Assembly: GCA_038002745.1 (NCBI GenBank)
Contig: JBBODD010000001.1
Span: 744,001-808,000 of the forward strand
Length of the DNA stretch: 64,000 bases
Source of the DNA: Bacillus sp. FSL H8-0547
GTDB taxonomy: Bacteria; Bacillota; Bacilli; Bacillales; Bacillaceae
Direction of reading: 5' to 3'
The translations under genes were made by a program, and so were the position numbers. The notes beneath the pieces were generated by a model, which was given only the letters and a program-made list of their open reading frames with translations, was not told the DNA's origin and did not search any database. Shown here piece after piece: positions 1,019 through 48,616 of this stretch; the first letter of the stretch is position 1, and the number at the start of each line of letters is the position of its first letter.

Positions 1019-1540
1019 AAAAGCGGAATCGCCCGTTTAGCCCTGACAGGCAGAAAAGAAATCACCCGAAAAGTCCGGTTTTGACTTTTTGGGGGATTTT
1101 GTTCTGACGGAAGGGCTGGGCGATGGAGCTGGACACCACGAAAAGCGGAATCGCTCGTTTAGCCCTGACAGGCAGAAAAGAAATCCCCCGAAAAGTCCGG
1201 TTTTGACTTTTTGGGGGATTTTGTTCTGACGGAAGGGCTGGGCGATGGAGCTGGACACCACGAAAAGCGGAATCGCCCGTTTAGCCCTGACAGGCAGAAA
1301 AGAAATCACCCGAAAAGTCCGGTTTTGACTTTTTGGGGGATTTTGTTCTGACGGAAGGGCTGGGCGATGGAGCTGGACACCACGAAAAGCGGAATCGCTC
1401 GTTTAGCTCCGGGAGTCAGATAAGGAAACAGCGGCAAAGGCGCTTTTTGCCTTTGGCGATGATTCCGTTCTGACAGAGGAGCTGAGCGATGGAGCTGGAC
1501 AATGAAGAAAAGCGGAATCACCCATTTAGACCTGACAATT
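1019..1540 (+). repeat. Tandem ~122-bp intergenic hairpin repeat, four units plus a fragment
   Basis: Units start at AAAAGCGG at 1019, 1141, 1263 and 1385, with a partial fifth at 1507. The first three are nearly identical and the fourth is divergent. Each unit is a nested inverted repeat: an inner hairpin (AATCMCCCGAAAAGTC against GACTTTTTGGGGGATT) inside a weaker outer one (AGCCCTGACAGGCAGAA against TTCTGACGGAAGGGCT). The array starts 5 bp after the dehydrogenase stop codon. Related copies occur at 29855, 40524 and 48116. Together with the terminator at 1573 it fills the gene-free stretch 1015-1694. Confidence 0.85.
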
Positions 1541-1572
1541 AGAAAAATCTCATAAGTTTACCGCCTGCAGAG

Positions 1573-1600
1573 AAAGCCCGTATCCAAAACGGGCTTTTTT
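1573..1600 (+). terminator. Intrinsic terminator
   Basis: AAAGCCCG, a ten-base loop and CGGGCTTTTTT. It probably ends transcripts that have crossed the repeat array. Confidence 0.75.
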
Positions 1601-1653
1601 CGTGTCTTCAAATTATATATTCTTAAGAAAATGTGCATGTGACCTATACTATT

Positions 1654-1669
1654 AAGAAAACGCTTACAT
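1654..1669 (+). promoter_or_regulatory. cre-like CcpA site
   Basis: AAGAAAACGCTTACAT fits WTGNAANCGNWNNCWW with one mismatch. It lies about 25 bp before the next start codon. Inference only. Confidence 0.35.
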
Positions 1670-1694
1670 ATACTGTATTAGGAAGGAGGGGATA

Positions 1695-1883
1695 ATGATG
1701 GATCGATTAACTTTCTTATTCCTTGCAGCCATTCTTGCAGGCTTTGCTCTAGTTGAACTTCCGCTGGCCGGAACATTCCTTGCAAGCCTAGCACCGTTTA
1801 CGACAGTCGTTGGCGTTTTAGCAATCTTAGTTTTTTCTTTCGTTTTGATTTTCCACGGCGTCAAAAGCTTATTTAATAAGTAG
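1695..1883 (+). CDS. Small two-helix membrane protein
   Basis: 62 residues, almost entirely hydrophobic. There are two likely membrane helices, about residues 4-22 and 32-55, and a basic C-terminal tail (HGVKSLFNK). The strong ribosome site GGAAGGAGGGG lies just before the ATG, and a terminator follows at 1894, so it looks like a real single-gene unit. I do not recognise the family. A cre-like site lies upstream. Confidence 0.65.
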   Translation: MMDRLTFLFLAAILAGFALVELPLAGTFLASLAPFTTVVGVLAILVFSFVLIFHGVKSLFNK

Positions 1884-1893
1884 CTGATTTCAA

Positions 1894-1922
1894 GGCCGGA
1901 GATTCTTTTCTCCGGTCTTTTT
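1894..1922 (+). terminator. Intrinsic terminator
   Basis: CCGGAGA, a short loop, TCTCCGG and a T-rich tail directly after the small membrane-protein gene. Confidence 0.8.
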
Positions 1923-1980
1923 GTGCTGCTGGAAATGTCTTTGATGAGCTGAGTTCAGTAAGCAATAGATAAATAGGCTA

Positions 1981-2007
1981 ACATAATTCTTTCTTCCGCA
2001 TACCCTA
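1981..2007 (+). promoter_or_regulatory. Probable sigma-K promoter of the YjcZ-like gene
   Basis: AC, 16 bp, then CATACCCTA matches the sigma-K pattern AC-N16/17-CATANNNTA. The same spacing appears before gerPA at 46061. It is 52 bp before the start codon. This suggests late mother-cell expression. Confidence 0.55.
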
Positions 2008-2058
2008 AATTTGAGCAAGAGAAAAGCTCACGATTTCATGATTGGAGGAGACACAACC

Positions 2059-2193
2059 ATGAGTAAAGATGGATGCGGCGGCGGATACAATAATGGATTC
2101 GCGCTAATTATCGTATTGTTTATTTTGCTGATTATCATCGGTGCTTCTTTTGTCGGCGGCGCTGGTTATGGTCCTGGACCTGGCTACTGCTAA
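2059..2193 (+). CDS. YjcZ-family small sporulation protein
   Basis: 44 residues: a polar Gly-rich start ([13 protein letters not shown]), one hydrophobic segment ([15 protein letters not shown]) and a Gly/Tyr/Pro-rich Cys-ending tail ([11 protein letters not shown]). This is the layout of YjcZ/YjcM-type small proteins, many of them spore-associated. The ATG at 2059 is preferred over an upstream in-frame start at 2011 because TGGAGGAG lies 10 bases before it. The sigma-K-like promoter supports a sporulation role. The molecular function of the family is not known to me. Confidence 0.8.
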
Positions 2194-2200
2194 AAACACA

Positions 2201-2232
2201 AAAAAACGGCTTGCAGTGCAGGCCGTTTTTTT
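2201..2232. terminator. Bidirectional terminator between the YjcZ-like gene and ppaC
   Basis: A-run, CGGCTTGCA/TGCAGGCCG stem and T-run. It can serve both convergent genes. Confidence 0.85.
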
Positions 2233-2242
2233 AAATGAAATT

Positions 2243-3178
2243 TTACAGTGCGTTTGTTAAAACTTCTGTCAGGACAGGTACAATTTGTTTCTTGCGGGAT
2301 ACAACGCCTTTCAGCACCGCCATGTTATCAATAAGCTTTACATCGTATGCCTGTTCTACCGCTCGTGTTTCACGGCCAAGAGCAATGGCAACGGAATCAT
2401 TGATCAGGATATCTGTTACGACAAATACGAACAAGTCCAATTCTTTTTCAGCGATAACCGCTGAAACCATCGCTTCGATTTCTTCTTTATGAACAAGAAT
2501 GTCGTTAGGGTCTACCGCATTTACCTGTGCAATCTCAACTTTGTAATCGCCCATTGAGAATTCTTTTGCATCAAGAGAAATGAGTTCTGAAACTGTTTTG
2601 CCGCTGAGGTCAGCTCCTGCTTTCAGCATATCAAGTCCGTACACTTCTGCATCCACGCCGGCAATGGCTGCAAGTTCTTGCGCAGCTGCTACATCCTGCT
2701 CTGTGCATGTAGGTGATTTAAACAATAATGAATCAGAGATGATGGCAGACAGCATAAGGCCCGCAATTTCTTTTGGAATGCTCACGCCGTTCTCTTTGTA
2801 AATCTTGTTCAGGATTGTAGCTGTGCATCCGACAGGCTCCGCGCGGTAATAAAGCGGATCGCTTGTTTCAAAGTTTGCGATGCGGTGATGGTCAATAACC
2901 TCAAGTACGTGTACTTTTTCAATGTCACTGACACTTTGCTGGCGTTCGTTATGGTCGACTAAAATGACCTGGCTTGTCTCATTCGCAGCTGTTTCGATCA
3001 GTCTTGGAACGTCAACTCCAAATGTATTCAGAGCAAATTCTGTTTCGCCGTTGATTTCTCCGAGGCGGACAGGCTCTGCATTCATGCCTAGCTTTGTTTT
3101 AAGATCAGCATACGCAATTGCAGAGCAAATCGTATCTGTATCCGGGTTTTTATGACCAAAGATCAATACTTTTTCCAT
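2243..3178 (-). CDS. ppaC: Manganese-dependent inorganic pyrophosphatase (family II)
   Basis: Hydrolyses pyrophosphate to phosphate in the cytoplasm, pulling biosynthetic reactions forward. At 311 residues it has the usual family II length. The DHH-superfamily metal ligands are visible: His9, Asp13 and Asp15 in GHKNPDTDT, Asp75 in VDHNE, Asp96-His97-His98 in DHHR, and Asp149 in ISDS. The C-terminal substrate-binding SRKKQ motif is present near residue 295. AAAGGAG precedes the ATG. It stands alone and shares a terminator with the small gene on the other strand. Confidence 0.97.
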
Positions 3179-3309
3179 CTGAAAAACTCCTTTATTCTAT
3201 CTGTTTTTGCTGAATCAGCATGCATTCTCTTATTTTAACAGAAAAATGTCTTTAATGGATTGTTGTTTTTGATTTCAATGTCAGGCTGCTTTTATGATCA
3301 TTGGAAATT

Positions 3310-3400
3310 CTAAATTGTACCGGTTCCCTTGCGCTCCAGTCACTTGCTTTCCGCGGGGAGTGCCTTCCGCTACAATCCACTGGAGGTTCAAGCATTTTCA
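3310..3400. repeat. Possible remnant of a Bacillus intergenic repeat
   Basis: A GC-rich block with CTTGCGCTCCAGTCACTTG followed by CTTTCCGCGGGGAG, and CTCCAGT/ACTGGAG as an outer inverted repeat. From memory, similar CTTTCCGCGGG sequences recur between genes in many Bacillaceae. Only this copy is seen here. Confidence 0.35.
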
Positions 3401-3444
3401 TTTTATTATGACCGCTTACCGCCCTCTTTTTCAAGTGGACAGGT

Positions 3445-6400
3445 TTATCTGCCGGCTGCTTTATTCACCGGGAAGTATCCCGCTTCTTTCAGCGGATCGA
3501 GGTCTTCATCCTCTTCGGCCATTTCCGTGAAGATGAAGTCTTCATCAAGTTCATACAGGGCCTCAAGCTGTTCTGCGGCTTCTTTAAACCGTTTCATTGA
3601 GGCAAGATAGCAGGCTCTGTTATAAAGACAGAGAAGATCCTCAGGCTCAAGTGCAATTGCCGCTTCAACAGCTTCAAGTGCTTCTTTCAACTTGAATTGA
3701 TGTCTGTATATGAGGCCAAGCTGATTGTAATTGTCGTGGTCGTCAGGGCTGACATCCATCGCCTGCCTGATGTGAGCTTCCGCCTGCCGGTATTTTTCAT
3801 CTTCTGTATAGAGTCTTGCCAGATGGAAATGTCCCTTTTCCACTTCCGGATCAATTTCCAAAGCCCGTTTAAACGCACCTTCTGCCTCTTCAAAGTCTCC
3901 GAATTCAAGCAGGGCGATGCCAAGAAGACTGTAATAGTCTGCATCTTCCTCGTCCTCAATCAGTGCTTCAAGTAGACCGCATGCTTCTGACAGGTAGCGG
4001 ACTGCTTTCTTTTCGCCTGCAGCAGCCGCTTCTTGAACAAGAAGGCCTGCAAGTTTATAGGCTGCGGCAGGTTCAAATGAATGGCGCAGTGATTGCTGCA
4101 GCACTTTAATGGCATCCTCGTTAAGTCCAAGCTGGAGGTAACAATCAGCAAACCAATTGACCGCTGTCCCGTTCTCCCTGTCCAGTTTTACTGCCTCTTC
4201 GTATAAATGGATAAGAAGCCCAAGCTTTAAACTCGCTTTTGAGAAACCTGTAATCCGCTTCAGCCAGCCCCTTTGCTTTTCAGCATCTTCGAACGCTTCC
4301 TGCATAGCGTTTAAGTGTCTTTCATAAGAAAGAGCCGCATGCATAAAAATGATGCTTTTTTCTTCATTAGAAACCTTCCATTTTTTCAGTTCTCCTTCAA
4401 GCTTTTGTATCGTCTTTGTTTCAATCATCAAATCAATCAGTGTGTCATAAAGCTTCCTTGTACCCGGATGATCATGGATCAGCTTGTACAGGAGAGCTTT
4501 TGCCTCTTTTGCTTTCCCGCGCCTGATAAGGAATGCTGCATAATGATGCTGCACCTGCAATTGGTCCGGATCAAGTTCAAGAGCCTGCATGAGGTGCTGT
4601 TCCTCTTTCTCAGCATCGCCGAGTTTTGCATAGACATGTGAGAGAGAATGGTGAAGGAATGCCTCTTCCACTGTTCCTTCAAGCTTCAATAGGTCCTGTT
4701 TAAAGGACTCTGCTTCTGCTTTTGTTTCCATTAAATCCAGCAGAACATCTGCTGAAATACAGTAAGGATCAACATGGAAAGCGGACAGGAGATAGTCTTT
4801 TTCTGCAGTCTTATCTTCTCTGCGGTTTGCAACTGATGCAAGGTCGAGCATCGCCTGTTCATGTTTCGGATCCAGCTCGAGAACTTTTTTATAATGACGC
4901 TCCGCCTCCGTGTACTCTTCAAGCTTTAAGGCAACCTCGCCAAGCCGGTAATACGTGAAAACTTTTTCATCGCAGATTTCAGCAGCCTGCCGGTATAATT
5001 TTCTTGCTTTAACAATTGAGCCCTGCTGTTCATGAAGATAGCCCGAATAGGCTAAAATGGCCGATTCGCTTACTTTCCCTTTTAAACGTTCATAAAACGC
5101 AAGGCCTCTCCGGTAATGCGGTGTTTCAGCAATCATGCCCGTATAGATTTCCATTGCCTCTTCCACATTTTCGTCAGCAAAGGAGATTGCTTTTTCCATA
5201 TAGGACAAAGCAAGTTCTTCGAAAGCCTCGCTTTCATCCATTTCGCTGCTTGCAGCAAACATCCGTTTCCCGGCGTTAAAGAGAAACTCGCTGTCATGCT
5301 GAAATGCTTCATAATGCGACTGAATTTCTTTAAAGAAGCGGGCTGTATCCCCTTCTTCTTTGTAAAGAGCAGCCAGAGCAATCCGTGAAAATGCGTCCTT
5401 TTCATCAAGGGCAGCCGCCATGCTGTAAAGTTCCCTGGCCTGCTGATACTCTTCTCGATTCTCCCGAATAACGCCCGCTGCATGAAGAAGCTCTGTCTTG
5501 TCATCTGCTGTTTGAATTCCCTGATCAAGAGCGCCTAGAGCCTTCTCCTCATCCTTAAAAACGGAATCATAGAGGTCCGCAAGTTCAATAAATGCTTCTG
5601 CTTCAGCCGGATCAAGGGCAGCAGCGGTCCGGAATCCGCGGAGTGCCGCCCGGTATTTGCCGAGGGCCAAGTCGCATTTCGCCCTTTGAAGCCAGACGTA
5701 CCCGTCATCTTTGTTTTCCCTCAGGCATTCGTGAAGCAGGCCTCTAGCCTCCTCCGGCCGGTCTGCTTCAAGCAGAAGGAGGCAATGATTGACGATTGTG
5801 AAAAGATCCAGGCTGTTAATATCCATTGCAATTTCAGAAAGCCTGAGCGCTTCTGCCGACTGGTTTCTGCTGAATGCTGCCATCGACAGGTAGGTCCATA
5901 ACACGTGGTCTTCAGGCTCTTTTTTCAGGGCTTCTTTAAAAGCCGAATAGGCTTCATCGTACTGCCCGGAACCGTAGCTGATTCTGCCTTTTGTCAACCA
6001 ATAGACCCCCGGATAATGGCGGGACTTGGTGCTGTTCAAATAGCTTTCTGCCTGTTCATTGTTTTTTGCGCTGTAATAGGCCATAGCGGCTGTAAGACTG
6101 TGGTATTCCGCCTGTTCTTTATGCTTTGAAATGACTTCTGCAGCTGCGCTTAAGATTTCTTCATCCACAACACCCGGCAAGTATTTCATGATATAGGCGG
6201 ACACGGCCATGTGCCCGATATTCTCTTTCAGGAAATCCTGATCTTCACGGCTGAGTTCCTTATGAAAAATTTCGGTCAAAGTGAAAAGTTTTTCAGACAT
6301 CTCATGTACGTGATCAGGCAGAAGGCCGGACAGGTTTGAGTGTCCCATTGGAGAAATGGCAAGCGATAACGCACCATTGTTTCCAAATTCGCGCTGCAGA

Positions 6401-20208: not shown

Positions 20209-20529
20209 TCATTCCTCAGGCCTTGGCCCCGCATCAATGCCCCTGCTTTCAACCGTCATAATCGGCCTGCAGGTGACATCGCCGTTTACGCGGATCTGGC
20301 AGGATAGGCGCAGATGATCCTCTACTCCCTTTTCAGCGAACGCGTTTCGTTCTGTGTTAGTTAAATCTTCAAAATCACCTTCAAGAATTTCCACGCGGCA
20401 GCTTGTGCATTTCGCTTTCCCGCCGCAGCGGTGGAGAATGTTGACTCCATTATCTTCAAGTGCTAAAACAAGTTTTTTTCCCATTTCTGTTTCAAATGAG
20501 CCGTGGCCCGGCACGTTAATTGTCGGCAT
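20209..20529 (-). CDS. 2Fe-2S plant-type ferredoxin
   Basis: A small electron carrier, 106 residues. Cluster ligands Cys35, Cys41, Cys44 and Cys77 (C-x5-C-x2-C-x32-C) give the plant-type pattern; a further Cys87 is present. The ATG at 20529 is chosen because GGAGGAATAAAA precedes it and homologues begin at this point; a longer frame to 20616 has no such support. The electron partner is not evident from the neighbours. The 52-bp hairpin array begins only 50 bp upstream of this start codon, so it probably lies in or near the promoter or leader. Confidence 0.88.
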   Translation of the reverse strand: MPTINVPGHGSFETEMGKKLVLALEDNGVNILHRCGGKAKCTSCRVEILEGDFEDLTNTERNAFAEKGVEDHLRLSCQIRVNGDVTCRPIMTVESRGIDAGPRPEE

Positions 20530-20578
20530 TTTTATTCCTCCATTGGTTTCTGGTTTAATGTTACTTATTACTTGAATT

Positions 20579-21306
20579 GGAACCATCAAGCTGCAGATTT
20601 TCTGTCTTGATGGCACTTATCTACGGGATTGGAACCATCAAGACCCGGATTTTCCGGCTTGGTGGCACTTATCTACGGGATTGGAACCATCAAGACCCGG
20701 ATTTTCCGGCTTGGTGGCACTTATCTCCGAGTTTGGAACCATCAAGCCAGCGATTTTCTGTTTTGACGGCACTTATATCCGAGTTCGGAACCATCAAGCT
20801 GCAGATTTTCTGTCTTGATGGCACTTATCTCCGGGATTGGAACCATCAAGACCCGGATTTTCTGTCTTGATGGCACTTATCTACGAGATTGGAACCATCG
20901 AGACCCGGATTTTCCGGCTTGGTGGCACTTATCTACGGGATTGGAACCATCAAGACCCGGATTTTCCGGCTTGGTGGCACTTATCTCCGAGATCAGGACC
21001 ATCAAGCCAGCGTTTTTCCCGTTTGATGGCACTTATCTCCAAGTTCAGGACCATCAAGCCAGCGATTTTCCCGTTTGATGGCCTTTATCTCCGAGTTCGG
21101 AACCATCAAGCTACCGCTTTTCTGTTTTGATGGCACTTATCTCCAAGTTGAGAACCATCAAGCCAGCAATTTTCTCGTTTGACGGCACTTATCTCCGAGT
21201 TCGGAACCATCAAGCTACCGGTTTTCTGTTTTGACGGCACTTATCTCCAGGATCGCAACCATCAAACACATGATTTTCCGCCCTGAAGGCACTTACCCCC
21301 AAGACC
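20579..21306 (-). repeat. 52-bp tandem hairpin array A, 14 units
   Basis: Fourteen units, each starting at GGAACCATCAAG or a variant, occur at strict 52-bp steps from 20579 to 21255, followed by a decayed fifteenth at 21307. On the minus strand the core is GTGCCATCAAAAC, then GAAAATCG, then GCTTGATGG. CCATCAA and TTGATGG form a hairpin. No insertions or deletions break the period. Sequence variants are distributed along the array. It fills the gene-free gap between yisR and the ferredoxin gene. Array B at 43303 is a related element. Confidence 0.93.
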
Positions 21307-21355: not shown

Positions 21356-22219
21356 TTATTTTTTCCTTGATACTATCTTTCGATATTCAAGTGGTGAAAC
21401 TCCTTCCAGCCGCTTAAATATTTTTGTGAAGTAGGCGGGATCCTGTATGCCGGACTCTTTTGCAATGAATGAAATTTTATCGTCAGTAGTAGACAGAAGA
21501 CGCTTCGCCTGTTCCATCCGGTACTGAGTTAAGTACTGTACGGGTGTGACCCCCATTGTTTTCTGCATGCATCTTGTGATGTAGTCGGGATGAAAGTGAA
21601 GTTCCTTTGCAACGTCCTCCATCTTCTTCTCTTCTTTGTAATGTTTCCTAATATAACGCAGCGTGTCTTCTACTACTTTTTCAGCTGCACTTGAAATTTT
21701 CAGTGATTCTTTTTGGAGATGAAGAATGATTTCCTGAAAATAAATCTGCTGCCTCAGCGGAAAATCAGGGGTCTGATGATCCAGACGTGTAAGATTCTCA
21801 AAAATCTTTTCAACAAAATCACGGTGGAGGCACTCTCCGAAAGCCGGAAGTTTAAAATGAAATTGGGGCGGAACGACAAAGTCCCCGTCTCGCGTCTGAA
21901 TCTCTGCCCAGTTTTCATACCCCTCCCTGTACAGTGAAAATTCACCCTCCATTTTGAAATGACACCAAAAAACTCTTGTATCTTCTCTGCAGCTTTTATG
22001 TCCGTAGTGTTCAAAGCCTGGAGTTAAGATGATGAACTGGCCGTCTTTTATTGTAAATGGCTCGCTGTTTTCCGTTATGTAAAGCTCTCCCGACTGGACG
22101 TAGATCAGATCAAAGACGGTAAAAATGCGCTTAAAGTGCTTGGATCCCTTTTTAAAAATAGCATCTCCGCCTTTTATAAAAGTTGGAAATGGAGGAATGT
22201 CAAAACCGATGTAGGACAT
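21356..22219 (-). CDS. yisR: AraC-family transcriptional regulator YisR
   Basis: 287 residues with the ATG at 22219, the length I recall for B. subtilis YisR. A TTG at 22252 would add 11 residues without an RBS. The N-terminal cupin-like sensing domain is about 1-150. The C-terminal pair of AraC helix-turn-helices is about 185-285 (MEDVAKELHFHPDYITRCMQ, then ISFIAKESGIQDPAYFTKIF). It is divergent from the MATE transporter yisQ, as in B. subtilis, and may control it. Effector unknown. Confidence 0.88.
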   Translation of the reverse strand: MSYIGFDIPPFPTFIKGGDAIFKKGSKHFKRIFTVFDLIYVQSGELYITENSEPFTIKDGQFIILTPGFEHYGHKSCREDTRVFWCHFKMEGEFSLYREGYENWAEIQTRDGDFVVPPQFHFKLPAFGECLHRDFVEKIFENLTRLDHQTPDFPLRQQIYFQEIILHLQKESLKISSAAEKVVEDTLRYIRKHYKEEKKMEDVAKELHFHPDYITRCMQKTMGVTPVQYLTQYRMEQAKRLLSTTDDKISFIAKESGIQDPAYFTKIFKRLEGVSPLEYRKIVSRKK

Positions 22220-22341
22220 GGCGCTCTCTCTCTTCAGGTCGTATTTTTCCAAAAATGATCGAAATCATCTCTTTTTATTATAGAAGATCATCTGTAAACT
22301 AGTAATGATTTTACGTAAGTTTTTGGGAAGGAGGATGTTTT

Positions 22342-30932: not shown

Positions 30933-30947
30933 TCGTATGTATGACGA

Positions 30948-31050
30948 CTTATCTTTCAGAATGAAGAACATTCTGCAGGATTTAGCACCGTTCCAATTAA
31001 GGAGGTTGCCGGACGTCGCAGGGCCTGTTCCCTCAGTCACTCTTGATAAG
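30948..31050 (-). ncRNA. SAM-I (S-box) riboswitch controlling metQ
   Basis: Read on the minus strand: CTTATCAAGAG opens P1, then GACTGAGGGAACAGGCCC, the GACGTCCGGCAACC core, GGTGCTAAATCC, and GATAAG closing P1. This is the full S-box consensus. SAM binding is expected to favour the terminator at 30900 and switch metQ off. With its promoter it fills the stretch 30878-31197. Confidence 0.96.
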
Positions 31051-31074
31051 CAAGCTATTAAATTGAATAACGTA

Positions 31075-41948: not shown

Positions 41949-42116
41949 ATGGCAGTGAATGAAATTGAAGTGCACAGACAAAAGCTTTTTGAAGCAGCAA
42001 AAGAACATGGAATGAATTCTTCTGAAACGGTGCGCCGCAGCCAGGAGCTCGACCAGCTGATCTTAGAACAAATCAAGCGGCAGATGGAAGGTGAACTGCA
42101 GACGGCAGTAAACTAA
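41949..42116 (+). CDS. yisI: Spo0E-family aspartyl-phosphate phosphatase YisI
   Basis: 55 residues in a two-helix coiled pattern with the family signature SQELD at residues 31-35. Members dephosphorylate Spo0A-phosphate and so delay sporulation. TTGGAG lies 8-12 bases before the ATG. The last four bases overlap the end of the convergent DUF418 gene. Its place beside yisK matches B. subtilis. Confidence 0.9.
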   Translation: MAVNEIEVHRQKLFEAAKEHGMNSSETVRRSQELDQLILEQIKRQMEGELQTAVN

Positions 42117-43267
42117 GCTCTGCTGAACAAGTAAATCCACTTCCGCAAAAGCCATTCTGCCGGACCAAACCGAAATGTTCTAAACCAATAATAGCTGACA
42201 ATAAGCTGCACCGAATAGAGGACCACTGCGATCATGACGCCTTCGCCTGCTGAAATGTTTCCGTACAACCCAAAACCATAGGAATAAAAAAGAAGTGTAC
42301 AGACCAATGACTGCATCAGATAATTGCTTAAAGACGCCCGTCCCGCTGCCTTAACCGCGCCGAGCTTGAAAGAATAGTTATTCAGCAGCAGCAGTATCAC
42401 CGAAACATAAAACAGGGTCAGTGCCGGACCCCCTAATGACAGCTGCAGATGCTGAGTAAGCAAATTCTCCTCCCAATAAAAGGGTGCACCTTTTAACAAA
42501 ACTGCGGCAGTTCCTGTTATCAGTGCCGTCCGTTTCCATTCAGACGACAGATCCTTATGAAACCAGCCACGCTTATAGGCGGCAGCACCAAGCATGAAAA
42601 GCGGTAAAATGGATATCACAAGAAAAAATGCATTCTCAAAGTTATTTACATACAGCCAGTCTGTCACTCTCTGCTGAGTAATGTCAAAAAAGCTTCCCGT
42701 CTGGTACGTCTCAGCTGACTGCTGAACAGCTTCCTCCGATTTGTAGTAACTGAGCATCTCCGGATCCGCTGCATATGCCGCAATAAGAGCAAAAGAAATC
42801 AGCACATTCGGAAGCAGCAGGATGAAAAGCCCCCACTTAATGAGCCCCCTGGAATTCCACTTTATAAATATCAGAAATAAAAACCCAATCAAGGCGTAGT
42901 TTGTCAGAATGTCCCCATGCCAGATCAAAAAAGCATGCAGAAGGCCAATAATCAACAGCCCAATCAGCCTTCTTGAGAAATACACATTGAACGAATGCCC
43001 CTTTTTCAATGCCCTCTCATAAAAAATCACCGTTCCCGCTCCAAATAAAAATGAGAACAGCGGATAAAAGCTTGCCTGAGCAAAAAACGAAATCAGCTGC
43101 TCAACAATCCGGTCAGAGCCGCTGCCGCTTACAAGGCTTGTCTCATAAAGAGCAGGCTCATAAAAAGACTTCATATTTACAAGCAGGATGCCAAGCAGCG
43201 AAAAGCCTCTCAGAATATCAAGCGTATGCAGCCTGTCCTTCTCAGGGACTGCTGTAAGTGGATCCAT
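42113..43267 (-). CDS. DUF418/YeiB-type membrane protein
   Basis: 384 residues, about ten membrane helices. The N-terminal LDILRGFSLLGILLVNM motif is typical of the DUF418/YeiB acyltransferase-3-like group, and the C-terminal YWFRTFRFGPAEWLLRKW motif is the DUF418 signature. The start at 43267 has AAAGGAGGG 8 bases upstream. The substrate is unknown. Array B begins roughly 35 bp upstream of the start codon. With topB it forms a block inserted between gerPA and yisI relative to B. subtilis. Confidence 0.88.
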   Translation of the reverse strand: MDPLTAVPEKDRLHTLDILRGFSLLGILLVNMKSFYEPALYETSLVSGSGSDRIVEQLISFFAQASFYPLFSFLFGAGTVIFYERALKKGHSFNVYFSRRLIGLLIIGLLHAFLIWHGDILTNYALIGFLFLIFIKWNSRGLIKWGLFILLLPNVLISFALIAAYAADPEMLSYYKSEEAVQQSAETYQTGSFFDITQQRVTDWLYVNNFENAFFLVISILPLFMLGAAAYKRGWFHKDLSSEWKRTALITGTAAVLLKGAPFYWEENLLTQHLQLSLGGPALTLFYVSVILLLLNNYSFKLGAVKAAGRASLSNYLMQSLVCTLLFYSYGFGLYGNISAGEGVMIAVVLYSVQLIVSYYWFRTFRFGPAEWLLRKWIYLFSRA

Positions 43268-43302
43268 TTTGATTTCCCTCCTTTTTTTCATACGATCAAT
43301 TT

Positions 43303-43740
43303 TCTGGTTTTTATGGTCTTGGGGTGCGAATCCGCTTTTTTAGTGCCCTCAATTTCCTACTTTCAGGTTTTGAGGGTACTGTTCTCGCTCTTTCGTACCC
43401 TCAAGCTCCGATTTCCAGCATTTGAGGGCACCATTCTGCGTTTTTAGTGCCCCAATTTCCGACTTTTGATTTTTGAGGGTTCTAATCTGCGTTTTTAGTG
43501 CCCTCAAGCTCCGATTTACAGGTTTTCAGGGCACCATTCCTGCTCTTTAGTGCCCTTAATCTCCGGTTTCCAGGTTTTGAGGGCACCACTCCCGCTCTCC
43601 AGTACCCTCAAGCTCTGATTTCCAGGTTTTGAGGGCATCACTCCCCCGCTCTCCACTACCCCCAAGCCCAGTCTCCAAGGGTTTAAGGGTACGGTTGTTC
43701 CGCTATTCACCGCCCTTGATTACCGAAGAGCATGCGGTGC
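43303..43740 (-). repeat. 52-bp tandem hairpin array B, about eight units
   Basis: GTGCCCTCAA-type unit starts occur at 43343, 43395, 43447, 43498, 43550, 43602, 43655 and about 43710: steps of 52, 52, 51, 52, 52, 53 and 55. A decayed half-unit precedes them. On the minus strand the core reads GTGCCCTCAAAACC, GGAAATCGG, GCTTGAGGGCAC, related to array A. The hairpin stem is 10-11 bp. It fills the gap between topB and the DUF418 gene. Confidence 0.9.
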
Positions 43741-43747
43741 AGTCAGA

Positions 43748-45871
43748 TTAGTCAAACGAAAACTCAATCTTCCCGTCCTTCAGGACAAGACTTGCATCAA
43801 AAGGCTTTTTGCCTTTGAAGCCTTTCAGCTTGTTTGTTTTTCCTTTTTGGCACAGTGTTTTAATCTGTGAGGCGGATATGGATTTTCCAAGCAGTTTTTT
43901 CGGAAAGGTCTGCTTGCATCCGCTTTTGTATTCTGTGCAGCCGTAGAACGTTTTTCGGTCCATGATGCTGCCCTTTAGACAGGCCGGGCAGGCGCAGATT
44001 GCAGCCCGGGTTTCCTGCTGGGGCGGAATGTCGACCTCAAGTTTTTCCATACTTTCCCCTGCCTGACTGATCAGGGTGTAGCAGAATTTTTTAGCCGTTT
44101 CGATAAAGACTTCTTTGGACTTTTCGCCGCTTCCGATTCCTTTTAGGTAGACTTCCCATTTTGCTGTCATTTCAGGCTTGGAGAGCAGAGTGCCGTCAAC
44201 CGCTTCACAAAGAACTTCCCCTTTCGGCGTGACAAACACTTCATTTTTCTTCACTTCAATAAACTTCCTCATAAGAAGCGTATCAATAATTCCGGAGCGC
44301 GTTGCTTCTGTCCCGAGACCTTCTGTGCTGTTCAGCGCTTCTCTCATCTCTTTGTCTTCCACATGCTTGCCGGCTGTTTTCATGAGCGTGATCAGCTGTC
44401 CCTGGGTGTACGGTTTAGGTGGCTGTGTCATGCCGTCCTTCACACCGATTTCCGCTTTGGCAGGCTCTCCCGCCGCCACTTTTGGAAGCATTTGAAGATC
44501 TGCTTTTTCTTCCGGGCTGTCAGTCTCTCTTTGGTAAAGCGTCTTCCACCCTGGCTTTTTCATCGTTCTTCCCTTGCTGATAAAATCGTTTTTTCCGATG
44601 GACGTCAGGATGGTTGTTTCATCATAGACGTAATCCTCCATAAACATGCCGAGAGCTGTTTTGATGACTTCTTCGTATACAGCTTTTTGTTCACCGCTGA
44701 AGGAATTGTAAGCAGCTTGCGTGACTCTTTTTTCAGTAGGCACGATAGCATAGTGATCGCTCACTCGTTTGGCATCCACAAACCGTTTTGAAGGCGACAG
44801 TCTTGCAGGGGTAAACGAGAGGGACAGGGTTTCCTGATACTGGCCGATTCTTGCCTTAATGTAACTGAATTCTTCCTCTGTAATAAACTGTGAGTCTGTT
44901 CTCGGATACGAAATATACCCTTTTTCATAAAGAGACTGTGCTGTTTTCAGAACCCCGCTTGGGCTCATTTTTCTCTGTTTATTCAATTTCGCCTGAAGGG
45001 TTGATAAGCTGTGAAGCTTTGGCGGCGGTACTCTTTTCTCCGCTGTATCTGCACTTTTCACTGTCGCTTCATACAGCGTTTTTCCCTTTACAATGTCAGG
45101 ACCAACAGCAGAAAACAATTCTTCCTGGCTTTTAAAGCGGCCCTTCAGCTTTCCAGTATAGTTTCCTGCGGCCACTTCAAAAGCAGCCTGAAGCTCGAAG
45201 AAAGGTTCAGGCTTAAAGTTTTCAATCTCCTTTTGCCTGTCATAAATCAGTTTCAGAACCGGAGTCTGTACTCTTCCCACACTGAAGACATCCCTTATCC
45301 CTTTCTTCTGAAGGTGAAGGGTATAAAGTCTGCTCGCATTTAAGCCTACAAGCCAGTCGGAGATCTGTCTCGCCTGCGCTTCGTGATAAAGATGAATGGT
45401 TTTGCTTCCGTCGTAAAGCTCTGTGAATCCTTTCATGATGGCATTTTCTGTTAACGAACTTGTCCAAAGACGCTTCACGCTCTTTTTTTCTGCACCGGCC
45501 ATCATGATCAGAAGTCTTGCAATATTTTCCCCTTCACGGGCAGGATCAGTGCCGATGATAATTTCATCTGCTTCCTTTAATAACTCTTTGACAATCTTAA
45601 ACTGCTTCGCTTTTCCTTTACTGACTTTATATGAAAAATGATCGGGAATAATCGGCAGTGTTTCAAACCGCCATTTTTTCCATTCGTCTTTATATTCATC
45701 AGGGTTTTTAAGTTCGACCAGATGGCCGATTGCCCACGTAACCTTTGCCCCGTCCGGAAAGACCGGGCATGGTTTAATCTCTAAATATCCCTCTTTTTTA
45801 ACAGAAGGAAAAGGGGCTGCAAGCTTGCGGCCCTGATCTGGTTTTTCAGCTAGAATGACCACTTGGGACAT
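43748..45871 (-). CDS. topB: DNA topoisomerase III
   Basis: Type IA topoisomerase that decatenates single-strand-containing DNA. 707 residues. The Toprim domain is about 1-140 (LAEKPDQGRKLA, GTDPAREGENIA). The active-site tyrosine lies in GYISYPRTDS. SVGRVQTPVL is present. The C-terminal end has a Cys-rich zinc-like unit (CACPACLKG, then FYGCTEYKSGCKQ). It sits beside gerP, away from its B. subtilis position. Confidence 0.95.
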   Translation of the reverse strand: MSQVVILAEKPDQGRKLAAPFPSVKKEGYLEIKPCPVFPDGAKVTWAIGHLVELKNPDEYKDEWKKWRFETLPIIPDHFSYKVSKGKAKQFKIVKELLKEADEIIIGTDPAREGENIARLLIMMAGAEKKSVKRLWTSSLTENAIMKGFTELYDGSKTIHLYHEAQARQISDWLVGLNASRLYTLHLQKKGIRDVFSVGRVQTPVLKLIYDRQKEIENFKPEPFFELQAAFEVAAGNYTGKLKGRFKSQEELFSAVGPDIVKGKTLYEATVKSADTAEKRVPPPKLHSLSTLQAKLNKQRKMSPSGVLKTAQSLYEKGYISYPRTDSQFITEEEFSYIKARIGQYQETLSLSFTPARLSPSKRFVDAKRVSDHYAIVPTEKRVTQAAYNSFSGEQKAVYEEVIKTALGMFMEDYVYDETTILTSIGKNDFISKGRTMKKPGWKTLYQRETDSPEEKADLQMLPKVAAGEPAKAEIGVKDGMTQPPKPYTQGQLITLMKTAGKHVEDKEMREALNSTEGLGTEATRSGIIDTLLMRKFIEVKKNEVFVTPKGEVLCEAVDGTLLSKPEMTAKWEVYLKGIGSGEKSKEVFIETAKKFCYTLISQAGESMEKLEVDIPPQQETRAAICACPACLKGSIMDRKTFYGCTEYKSGCKQTFPKKLLGKSISASQIKTLCQKGKTNKLKGFKGKKPFDASLVLKDGKIEFSFD

Positions 45872-47895: not shown

Positions 47896-48114
47896 ATGCC
47901 AGCAATCATCGGTCCGATCTGCATTAACTCTGTCGGCGGCGGTGTCGTAAACTTTGGTGATTCCTTTTATCTGTCTCCAAAAAGCTCATCAAAGACAGCT
48001 TCCGGTTCTGGCGGCGGAAATACAGGCGACTTTATCATAGTCAACAACATCGTAAGTGCAACCAACTCGCTAGACCCAGATGTGAATGATCAGAATATTG
48101 TGGCTAATAATTAG
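47896..48114 (+). CDS. gerPF: Spore germination protein GerPF
   Basis: 72 residues, MPAIIGPICINSVGGGVVNFGD with GGGNTGDFIIVNN, paralogous to GerPA. Last gene of the operon; the ~121-bp hairpin repeats begin 2 bp after its stop. Confidence 0.93.
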   Translation: MPAIIGPICINSVGGGVVNFGDSFYLSPKSSSKTASGSGGGNTGDFIIVNNIVSATNSLDPDVNDQNIVANN

Positions 48115-48115
48115 A

Positions 48116-48616
48116 AATGCGGAAGCGCCTTGGTCAGCTCCGAAGGACAGAAAAGGATCCGACGGAAAAAGCCGGTTTTGCTTTTTGCGGCGGAGCCGTT
48201 CTGGCCGAGGAGTTAGGCGCTGGAGCTAGACACTGAGAAAAGCGGAAGCGCTCGTTTAGCTCCGGGAGTCAGATAAGGAAACGGCGGTAAAGGCGCTTTT
48301 TGCCTTTGCCGACGGTTCCGTTCTGACAGAGGAGTTGAGCGCTGGAGCTGGACACTAGAAAAGCGGAGCCGACTGTTCAGGCCTGGCAGTCAGAACAAAA
48401 TCACCGGAAAAGTCCGATTTTGACTTTTTCGGGGATTATGTTCTGACAGAAGGACTAGGAGGCGCAGCTGGACACTAGAAAAGCGGAATCAGCCGTTTAG
48501 CTCCGACAGACAGAAAAGAAATCACCGGAAAAGTCCGGGTTTGACTTTTTCGGGGATTTTGTTCTGGCCGAGGAGTTAGGCGCTGGAGCTGGACACTGAG
48601 AAAAGCGGAATCACCA
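48116..48616 (+). repeat. Tandem ~121-bp intergenic hairpin repeat, four units plus a fragment
   Basis: Units start at 48116, 48238, 48359 and 48479 with a fragment at 48601. They are more divergent from each other than those at 1019. Inner arms differ (ATCCGACGG..GGCGGAGCC type, CGGTAAAGGCG/CGCC-type, AATCACCGG/CGGGGATT) but stay largely complementary. With the terminator at 48625 they fill the gap between gerPF and yisB. Confidence 0.85.

Follow-up and report, generated by a model that had tools for sequence, protein, structure and literature searches.

Array B is one of at least 30 members of a 52-bp tandem-repeat family with fixed dyad geometry in a Metabacillus genome

The intergenic repeat that we refer to as array B genuinely belongs to a known, unexplained class of 52-nt tandem repeats, a class that is also listed for the nearest named species. 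It was studied in a window of 64,000 bp (G000:C1:744001-808000, within a contig of 4.11 Mb), and the source genome (G000) is that of a Metabacillus near Metabacillus indicus (G004). A second array in the same window, array A, belongs to the same family, but the pair is nothing special, as there are at least 30 such arrays in the genome. Our most likely reading, which we hold only tentatively, is that these arrays work as double-stranded DNA, as phased half-sites for a putative protein with a role in organising or insulating the chromosome.

Position and anatomy of arrays A and B

Array B lies on the minus strand at 43339..43715, as judged from Tandem Repeats Finder (TRF) and a reading of the units, and consists of seven recognisable 52-bp units (steps 51-54) and a degenerate end. 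TRF reports 43339-43644 with a period of 52, 5.9 copies and a score of 291. By eye, the left arms of the units on the minus strand lie near 43689, 43635, 43583, 43531, 43479, 43428 and 43376, giving successive steps of 54, 52, 52, 52, 51 and 52, with the degenerate end running to about 43715. The scoring matrix of the family passes six units versus the seven seen by eye, and the minus-strand consensus of six units is TGGTGCCCTCAAAACCTGGAAATCGGAGCTTGAGGGCACTAAAGAGCGGGAT. An earlier, sequence-only reading had placed about eight units, mostly of 52 bp, between 43303 and 43740; the array and its period hold, while the count is slightly high, with seven clear units, and roughly 60 bp of that span is ordinary flanking sequence.

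Array A (20579..21305, plus strand, from TRF and the matrix) has 14 units of 52 bp with the plus-strand consensus TGGAACCATCAAGCCCCCGATTTTCTGGCTTGATGGCACTTATCTCCGAGAT. The units of both arrays carry inverted 7-mers, CCATCAA/TTGATGG in array A and CCCTCAA/TTGAGGG in array B, and the two consensuses are alike at 20 of the 38 positions outside these arms, where 8.9 (sd 2.6) are expected by chance, which bears out the proposal that they form one family. The inverted repeat in the TRF consensus is significant against shuffles in both (p = 0.007 for array B, p = 0.003 for array A). The arrays had also been said to share an orientation. However, the unit is nearly palindromic and matches exceed chance in both directions (20/38 for A-plus with B-minus, 17/38 for A-minus with B-minus), so that a common orientation cannot be sustained.

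As the same reading had it, both arrays sit in gaps between two minus-strand genes. Array B lies between the 3' end of a DNA topoisomerase III-like gene (43748..45871, minus, an ORF call) and the start of a DUF418 protein gene (42113..43291, minus; PF04235, E = 9.6e-38). The product of the former, which we take to be TopB, is 98% identical to its counterpart in Metabacillus indicus LMG 22858. Array A lies between the 3' end of an AraC-family regulator gene (21356..22252, minus; PF12833 and PF00165) and the start of a 2Fe-2S ferredoxin gene (20209..20531, minus; PF00111, E = 1.4e-10), the ORF of which was read from 20616, with the start near 20531 judged by eye. Neither array matched Rfam in a scan of the window at the gathering threshold; the sole match was a SAM riboswitch at 30946-31052 on the minus strand.

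A family of arrays in the source genome

Searching the genome with BLAST placed array A at 39 sites and array B at 10. A covariance model built from 49 units of 13 arrays, a kind of search that the earlier reading had suggested, gave at least 186 unit matches in the source genome with 150 of 3219 candidates scored; such unit counts are lower bounds, as 147-150 of the 1132-4521 first-look candidates were scored per genome, while exact-pattern counts are complete. An array was contained in 28 of the 29 stretches around clusters of matches (L029, which came from a 72-bp BLAST match and is without an array, was dropped), and with arrays A and B the total comes to 30 arrays with 363 units. By longest-ORF calls made with our own script, each of the 30 falls in a gap between larger ORFs and is thus non-coding; ORFs of 82-129 aa within seven of them look incidental.

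The unit consists of an inverted 7-mer pair, CC[AC][CT]CAA-17-TTG[AG][GT]GG, and a 21-bp spacer, with the full consensus AGAA-CC[AC][CT]CAA-N17-TTG[AG][GT]GG-CACTTATC-N3-GAGAT. Exact copies of the dyad, CCMYCAA-N17-TTGRKGG, number 274 in G000 and 169 in M. indicus; G001 has one and four further genomes of the genus have none, and the pattern read backwards has no copy in any of these seven genomes. Across 397 genomes of the order, the dyad is found in 0-4 copies except in G000 and M. indicus, and the backwards control in 0-2. The 758 kb of G000 examined contain 255 exact dyads, 254 of them inside arrays; since 19 of the 274 dyads fall outside these 758 kb, the genome may hold further arrays of the family.

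Other tandem arrays are present as well. A 400-kb sample of G000, roughly evenly spaced and placed away from known arrays, yielded 11 further arrays of 52 or 53 bp that the family matrix misses, nine of them with at least four copies, and the genome therefore carries several sequence families of equal length (30 arrays and 11 others). Arms of the type TACCC/GGGTA, as in array B, are seen in four of the 11, three of which, with TACCCT/AGGGTA arms, correspond to family 7_52_18 as published for B. indicus; the remaining seven seem unrelated. A significant inverted repeat is present in the consensus of two of the 11 (p > 0.05 in nine), and one sampled array, L183, sits inside an ORF of about 250 aa. 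Because the sampled arrays differ in arms and dyad, length is the constant feature, as the literature says, and a single protein with a single site cannot account for all arrays, given that the sampled ones have other arms or no clear dyad.

An array class with a period of about 121-123 bp (GAAAAGCGGAATC...CTGGACAC) is also common in the genome, at 1018-1537 and 48079-48613 of the window and at L166 14664-14926, L179 4217-4705, L181 1989-2299 and 3786-4406, and L184 14975-15196. Two period-53 arrays, L170 10001-10404 and L172 16626-17000, have in common motifs resembling TATAATCAG and CGTACGAAT, oppositely oriented, as seen by eye, and apparently form a separate family in G000.

Constraint on unit length and arms

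Within the family, 313 of 333 steps from unit to unit are exactly 52 bp, and since the spacings are nearly all 52, few units have been missed by the matrix. Of the 20 odd steps, eight are of 51, 53 or 54, 11 are of 103, 105 or 158 and span an undetected unit, and one is of 66. When all 20 are counted as indels, the arrays show 20 indels per 2060 substitutions versus 68 per 1038 in the syntenic intergenic DNA of the same stretches (15,510 aligned bases), a depletion with an odds ratio of 0.15 (p = 1.8e-16) that makes indels about 7-fold rarer per substitution. It should be noted that array substitutions were scored against the array consensus, that several units can inherit the same substitution or indel, and that balanced indels within a unit would be hidden from this count. 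Within these counting limits, the constraint on length is measured inside a single genome.

The arms are the conserved part of the unit. Mean match to the array consensus is 0.956 for the arms, compared with 0.880 for the spacer and 0.850 for the loop (53 arrays of at least five units, two species), and between arrays the CC, CAA, TTG and GG columns hold 1.86-2.0 bits while 13 of the 17 loop columns hold less than 0.5; units were chosen by their arms or by a matrix containing them, which favours arm conservation. The length of the loop is fixed while its sequence is free.

Placement relative to genes

The 30 arrays lie in 20 codirectional, eight convergent and two divergent gaps, compared with a background of 199, 45 and 47 pairs of neighbouring genes of these types in the same stretches (convergent excess p = 0.12; divergent shortage p = 0.21). 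Their orientation relative to codirectional genes is 13 to 7 (p = 0.26) in a hand count in which the strand is ambiguous for several arrays. A terminator-like hairpin lies ahead of the array at 24 of 34 gene ends, versus 11 when the same gaps are reversed and 5.4 in shuffles, and in 18 of these 24 cases a T-run lies 11-57 bp from the array; this count leaves out two of the 36 gene-end gaps, L022 and L031, which exceed 460 bp. The gene ends facing arrays A and B belong to the other 10, at which no such hairpin was found.

One explanation of the arrays is that each is a cis-regulatory operator array for the gene just downstream, such as those for the ferredoxin or the DUF418 protein. Such a role would fit the 20 arrays between codirectional genes, 12 of which end no more than about 105 bp from the next start. 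However, eight of the 30 lie between convergent genes, and the 20 directly downstream genes are functionally unrelated: their products include an isochorismatase, the small chain of carbamoyl-phosphate synthase, a PnrA-like binding protein, L25, DAP epimerase, GntR and a sigma factor besides the ferredoxin and the DUF418 protein, and no common theme was found among the 20, two of which are without a Pfam match at 1e-5. The upstream proteins, 10 of 20 examined, are likewise mixed. We consider local operators very improbable. The sequence-only reading had likewise suggested a mobile or recruited regulatory module, had proposed to look for a theme shared by the downstream genes, and had let its suggestion depend on further members with consistent position or orientation. 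Members are plentiful, but gap types are mixed and neither a fixed orientation nor a gene theme was found, and the recruited regulator is for this reason unsupported.

We also considered a partner gene encoded beside the arrays. Among 427 ORFs near arrays in 14 genomes, only two clusters recur in at least three genomes, one of them AraC-type and the other presumably of ABC ATPases, and this candidate was rejected.

Turnover relative to M. indicus

In syntenic stretches, G000 and M. indicus mostly share 90-96% identity in the DNA that flanks the arrays, and an array is present at the corresponding place in M. indicus for 25 of the 30 (for L028, both flanks were rechecked as syntenic; L022, L032 and L044 were left out of this comparison). 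Array B corresponds to a 12-unit array (L163) and array A to a 5-unit array (L164). Unit numbers differ in all 25 pairs and are larger in G000 in 23, although the M. indicus assembly is a draft of 20 contigs in which lower numbers may partly reflect collapse. Mean unit identity is 0.82 within an array, 0.785 between syntenic arrays and 0.587 between other arrays, as calculated from 22 of the 25 pairs (L027, L039 and L041 were omitted for an inconsistent strand call).

Sites can also change. L031 and L032 have units that are 85% identical and flanks that are unrelated outside the arrays. At the L035 site M. indicus is without an array, while L023, the array most like L035, is syntenic; about 114 bp of unrelated sequence there replaces the near flanks as well as the array, and a target duplication is therefore unreadable. 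None of the arrays matched at the two sites checked for absence in M. indicus (L035 and L037). The sharing of units by L031 and L032 and the absence at L035 suggest that arrays arise at new sites or get lost now and then, in agreement with the earlier view that more than local slippage is at work. L037 (4560-5339) has near-identical units in G000, and the corresponding place in M. indicus, G004:C6:508247-508582 (L206/L207), holds an ORF for a Y1-type (IS200-like) transposase.

Such turnover would be expected of a self-propagating or neutral satellite, in which a palindromic seed is copied and then expanded by slippage or unequal recombination, without host function and with the unit length set by the copying itself. 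The differing unit numbers in all 25 syntenic pairs, within the limits of the draft assembly, the similar units of L031 and L032 without a common flank, the unmatched arrays L035 and L037 and the lack of a theme among the 20 downstream genes all speak for it. Yet the arms are kept while the loops drift, plain slippage leaves the roughly 7-fold indel depletion unexplained, and the REP-type Y1 transposase (PF01797) is absent from the genome. Overall, we regard a satellite of this kind as possible but rather unlikely. Spread driven by a RAYT was considered as well and rejected for this genome, as PF01797 has no match in G000, one in M. indicus and two in G003.

Two known systems invite comparison. 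BIME/REP arrays of enterobacteria consist of inverted units in intergenic DNA close to the ends of genes, are common to related genomes and vary in unit number, and the arrays described here resemble them in these respects. Unlike BIME/REP, they have a period fixed at 52 and occur in a genome without the RAYT-type transposase. CRISPR arrays are made of short, regularly spaced palindromic repeats, constant in sequence, with unique spacers. The likeness extends to the short palindromic repeats at regular spacing; here, in contrast, the parts between palindromes repeat too, whole units being 0.82 identical (22 arrays), and there are at least 30 arrays in a single genome.

The published class of 52-nt repeats

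The 52-nt Bacillus repeats were described by Subirana and Messeguer in 2021 without an assigned function (PMC8161180). For B. indicus, 90 tandem repeats were reported on average, 96.6% of them of 52 nt; the repeat sequences were termed species-specific, and short signals 'and their reverse' were noted (PMC8161180). The present arrays share with this class a length of 51-53, often 4-10 units, a non-coding position, the presence of many arrays and of several families of equal length; the steps of array B, and those of its family, agree with a length of 51-53 in at least four near-equal repeats. A further mark of the class is that tandem repeats of other lengths are few in the genome; in G000, arrays with a period of about 121-123 bp are common beside those of 52 bp. 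Dyad geometry, an indel test, placement relative to genes and synteny across species are absent from the main text and tables of PMC8161180. Among the matches listed in our literature searches, only papers by Subirana and Messeguer were relevant to such repeats (including PMC6749651), which does not amount to absence from print.

A significant inverted repeat (p < 0.05 against shuffles) is present in 17 of the 27 consensus repeats in Table 1 of PMC8161180, in which rows from the same species are not independent, and not in the other 10. One published dyad, TGTCNTTCAT-N7-ATGAANGACA (the TGTC dyad), is found in 29 of the 397 genomes searched in the order, representing 18 of 135 genera; at least 10 copies are found in 12 genomes of eight families, with up to 108 per genome, and a search of the 397 genomes with the backwards pattern gave none among the matches listed. 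The spread of a single dyad over 18 genera is at odds with the view that these repeats are species-specific. In a text search of the literature for the arms of the TGTC dyad, nothing on bacterial repeats appeared, by title, among the matches listed. The genomes with the dyad are scattered over families of the order (G028, G067, G087, G138, G233 and others).

The geometry of the TGTC dyad is rigid. With loop lengths of 4-12 permitted, 105 of the 106 copies in a sample of 20 stretches from 13 genomes have an outer length of 27 bp, with 60 different loops, and 82 of 86 distances between neighbours are 51-53 or 104 bp.

DNA half-sites or RNA hairpins

An inverted repeat may be recognised in DNA or may fold in RNA, and the arrays could be RNA elements, that is, strings of transcribed hairpins acting in mRNA end protection, as a sponge or as small RNAs, along the lines of Subirana and Messeguer. 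As RNA, arrays A and B fold far better than shuffles (z = -6.6 with 100 shuffles, -10.1 with 20), a finding which favours such elements, as do the inverted repeats in 17 of the 27 published consensuses. On the basis of RNA-seq, the arrays of B. coagulans are reported to be transcribed (PMC8625621). Moreover, in an alignment across arrays (A1), pairing reaches 94.8% versus 90.5% after shuffling and covariation 0.125 versus 0.066, values attained in none of 500 shuffles, although such an excess can also arise from the relatedness of the sequences. Units of the TGTC family, taken together, show an excess of T-A at position 5 (8 versus 2.7).

If a stem in the RNA of one strand were selected, changes in the two arms would be linked, and G-U pairs would be tolerated more on the transcribed strand. 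When 3' arms were shuffled within arrays, 2228 pairs in G000 compared with 2226.1 (sd 3.3) expected (335 of 1000 shuffles as high) and 1210 in M. indicus with 1205.9 (sd 2.2) expected (63 of 1000); in the TGTC family, pairing was 1003 versus 999.4 (293 of 2000 as high). Arm changes within arrays are thus not clearly compensated. Wobble pairs number 82 on the gene-sense strand versus 66 on the other in the 20 codirectional arrays, without significant bias (p = 0.22). The difference between arrays A and B was considered as a compensatory change and set aside as weak evidence for a stem: the majority at columns 8/34 is C-G in three of the 30 arrays, namely B, L028 and L045, which have the form TACCCTC in common and may represent a single lineage, and an unpaired combination in seven.

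The absence of clear compensation, the lack of a significant wobble bias, the terminators at 24 of 34 gene ends and the rigid loop favour half-sites in DNA at rigid spacing rather than a hairpin in RNA. Together with the lack of a significant bias in orientation and of an Rfam match, these results make RNA elements unlikely. On balance, we favour recognition of double-stranded half-sites at fixed spacing.

Implications

We propose the following arrangement for recognition at the DNA level. Each unit presents two inverted 7-bp half-sites with 17 bp between them and 21 bp to the next pair. As 52 bp corresponds to about five helical turns, the matching dyads of 5-20 units would face the same side of the helix, in a tract lying where two transcription units leave a quiet gap. 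A putative sequence-specific DNA-binding protein would cover the tract cooperatively, and the covered tract may organise or insulate the chromosome. Several observations count against this DNA-level proposal: the ORFs near arrays yielded no binding protein, the sampled arrays with other arms or no clear dyad do not fit a single protein with one site, the choice of units by their arms favours arm conservation, half-site spacing is 17 bp in one family versus 7 bp in the other, periods of 51 and 53 occur, pairing across arrays exceeds shuffles in alignment A1, no terminator was found ahead of arrays A and B, and transcription of arrays is reported for B. coagulans.

A broader suggestion, plausible but doubtful, is that in Bacillales the 52-nt arrays form a single class of DNA element with helical phasing, bacterial satellite chromatin in effect. 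Rigid inverted half-sites in quiet gaps would be read by a putative protein, or family of proteins, gauging a length of 52 bp, and would be copied between places, some half-sites being cross-genus (the TGTCNTTCAT type) and others lineage-specific (the CCMYCAA type).

In print, the 52-nt repeats are an open puzzle of constant length and variable sequence (PMC8161180), to which the dyad geometry, the depletion of indels and the exact half-site are added here. The dyad and its half-site provide a defined bait and a set of mutations with which the DNA and RNA accounts are separable experimentally, and a dyad that recurs in 18 genera offers a motif for seeking the partner protein.
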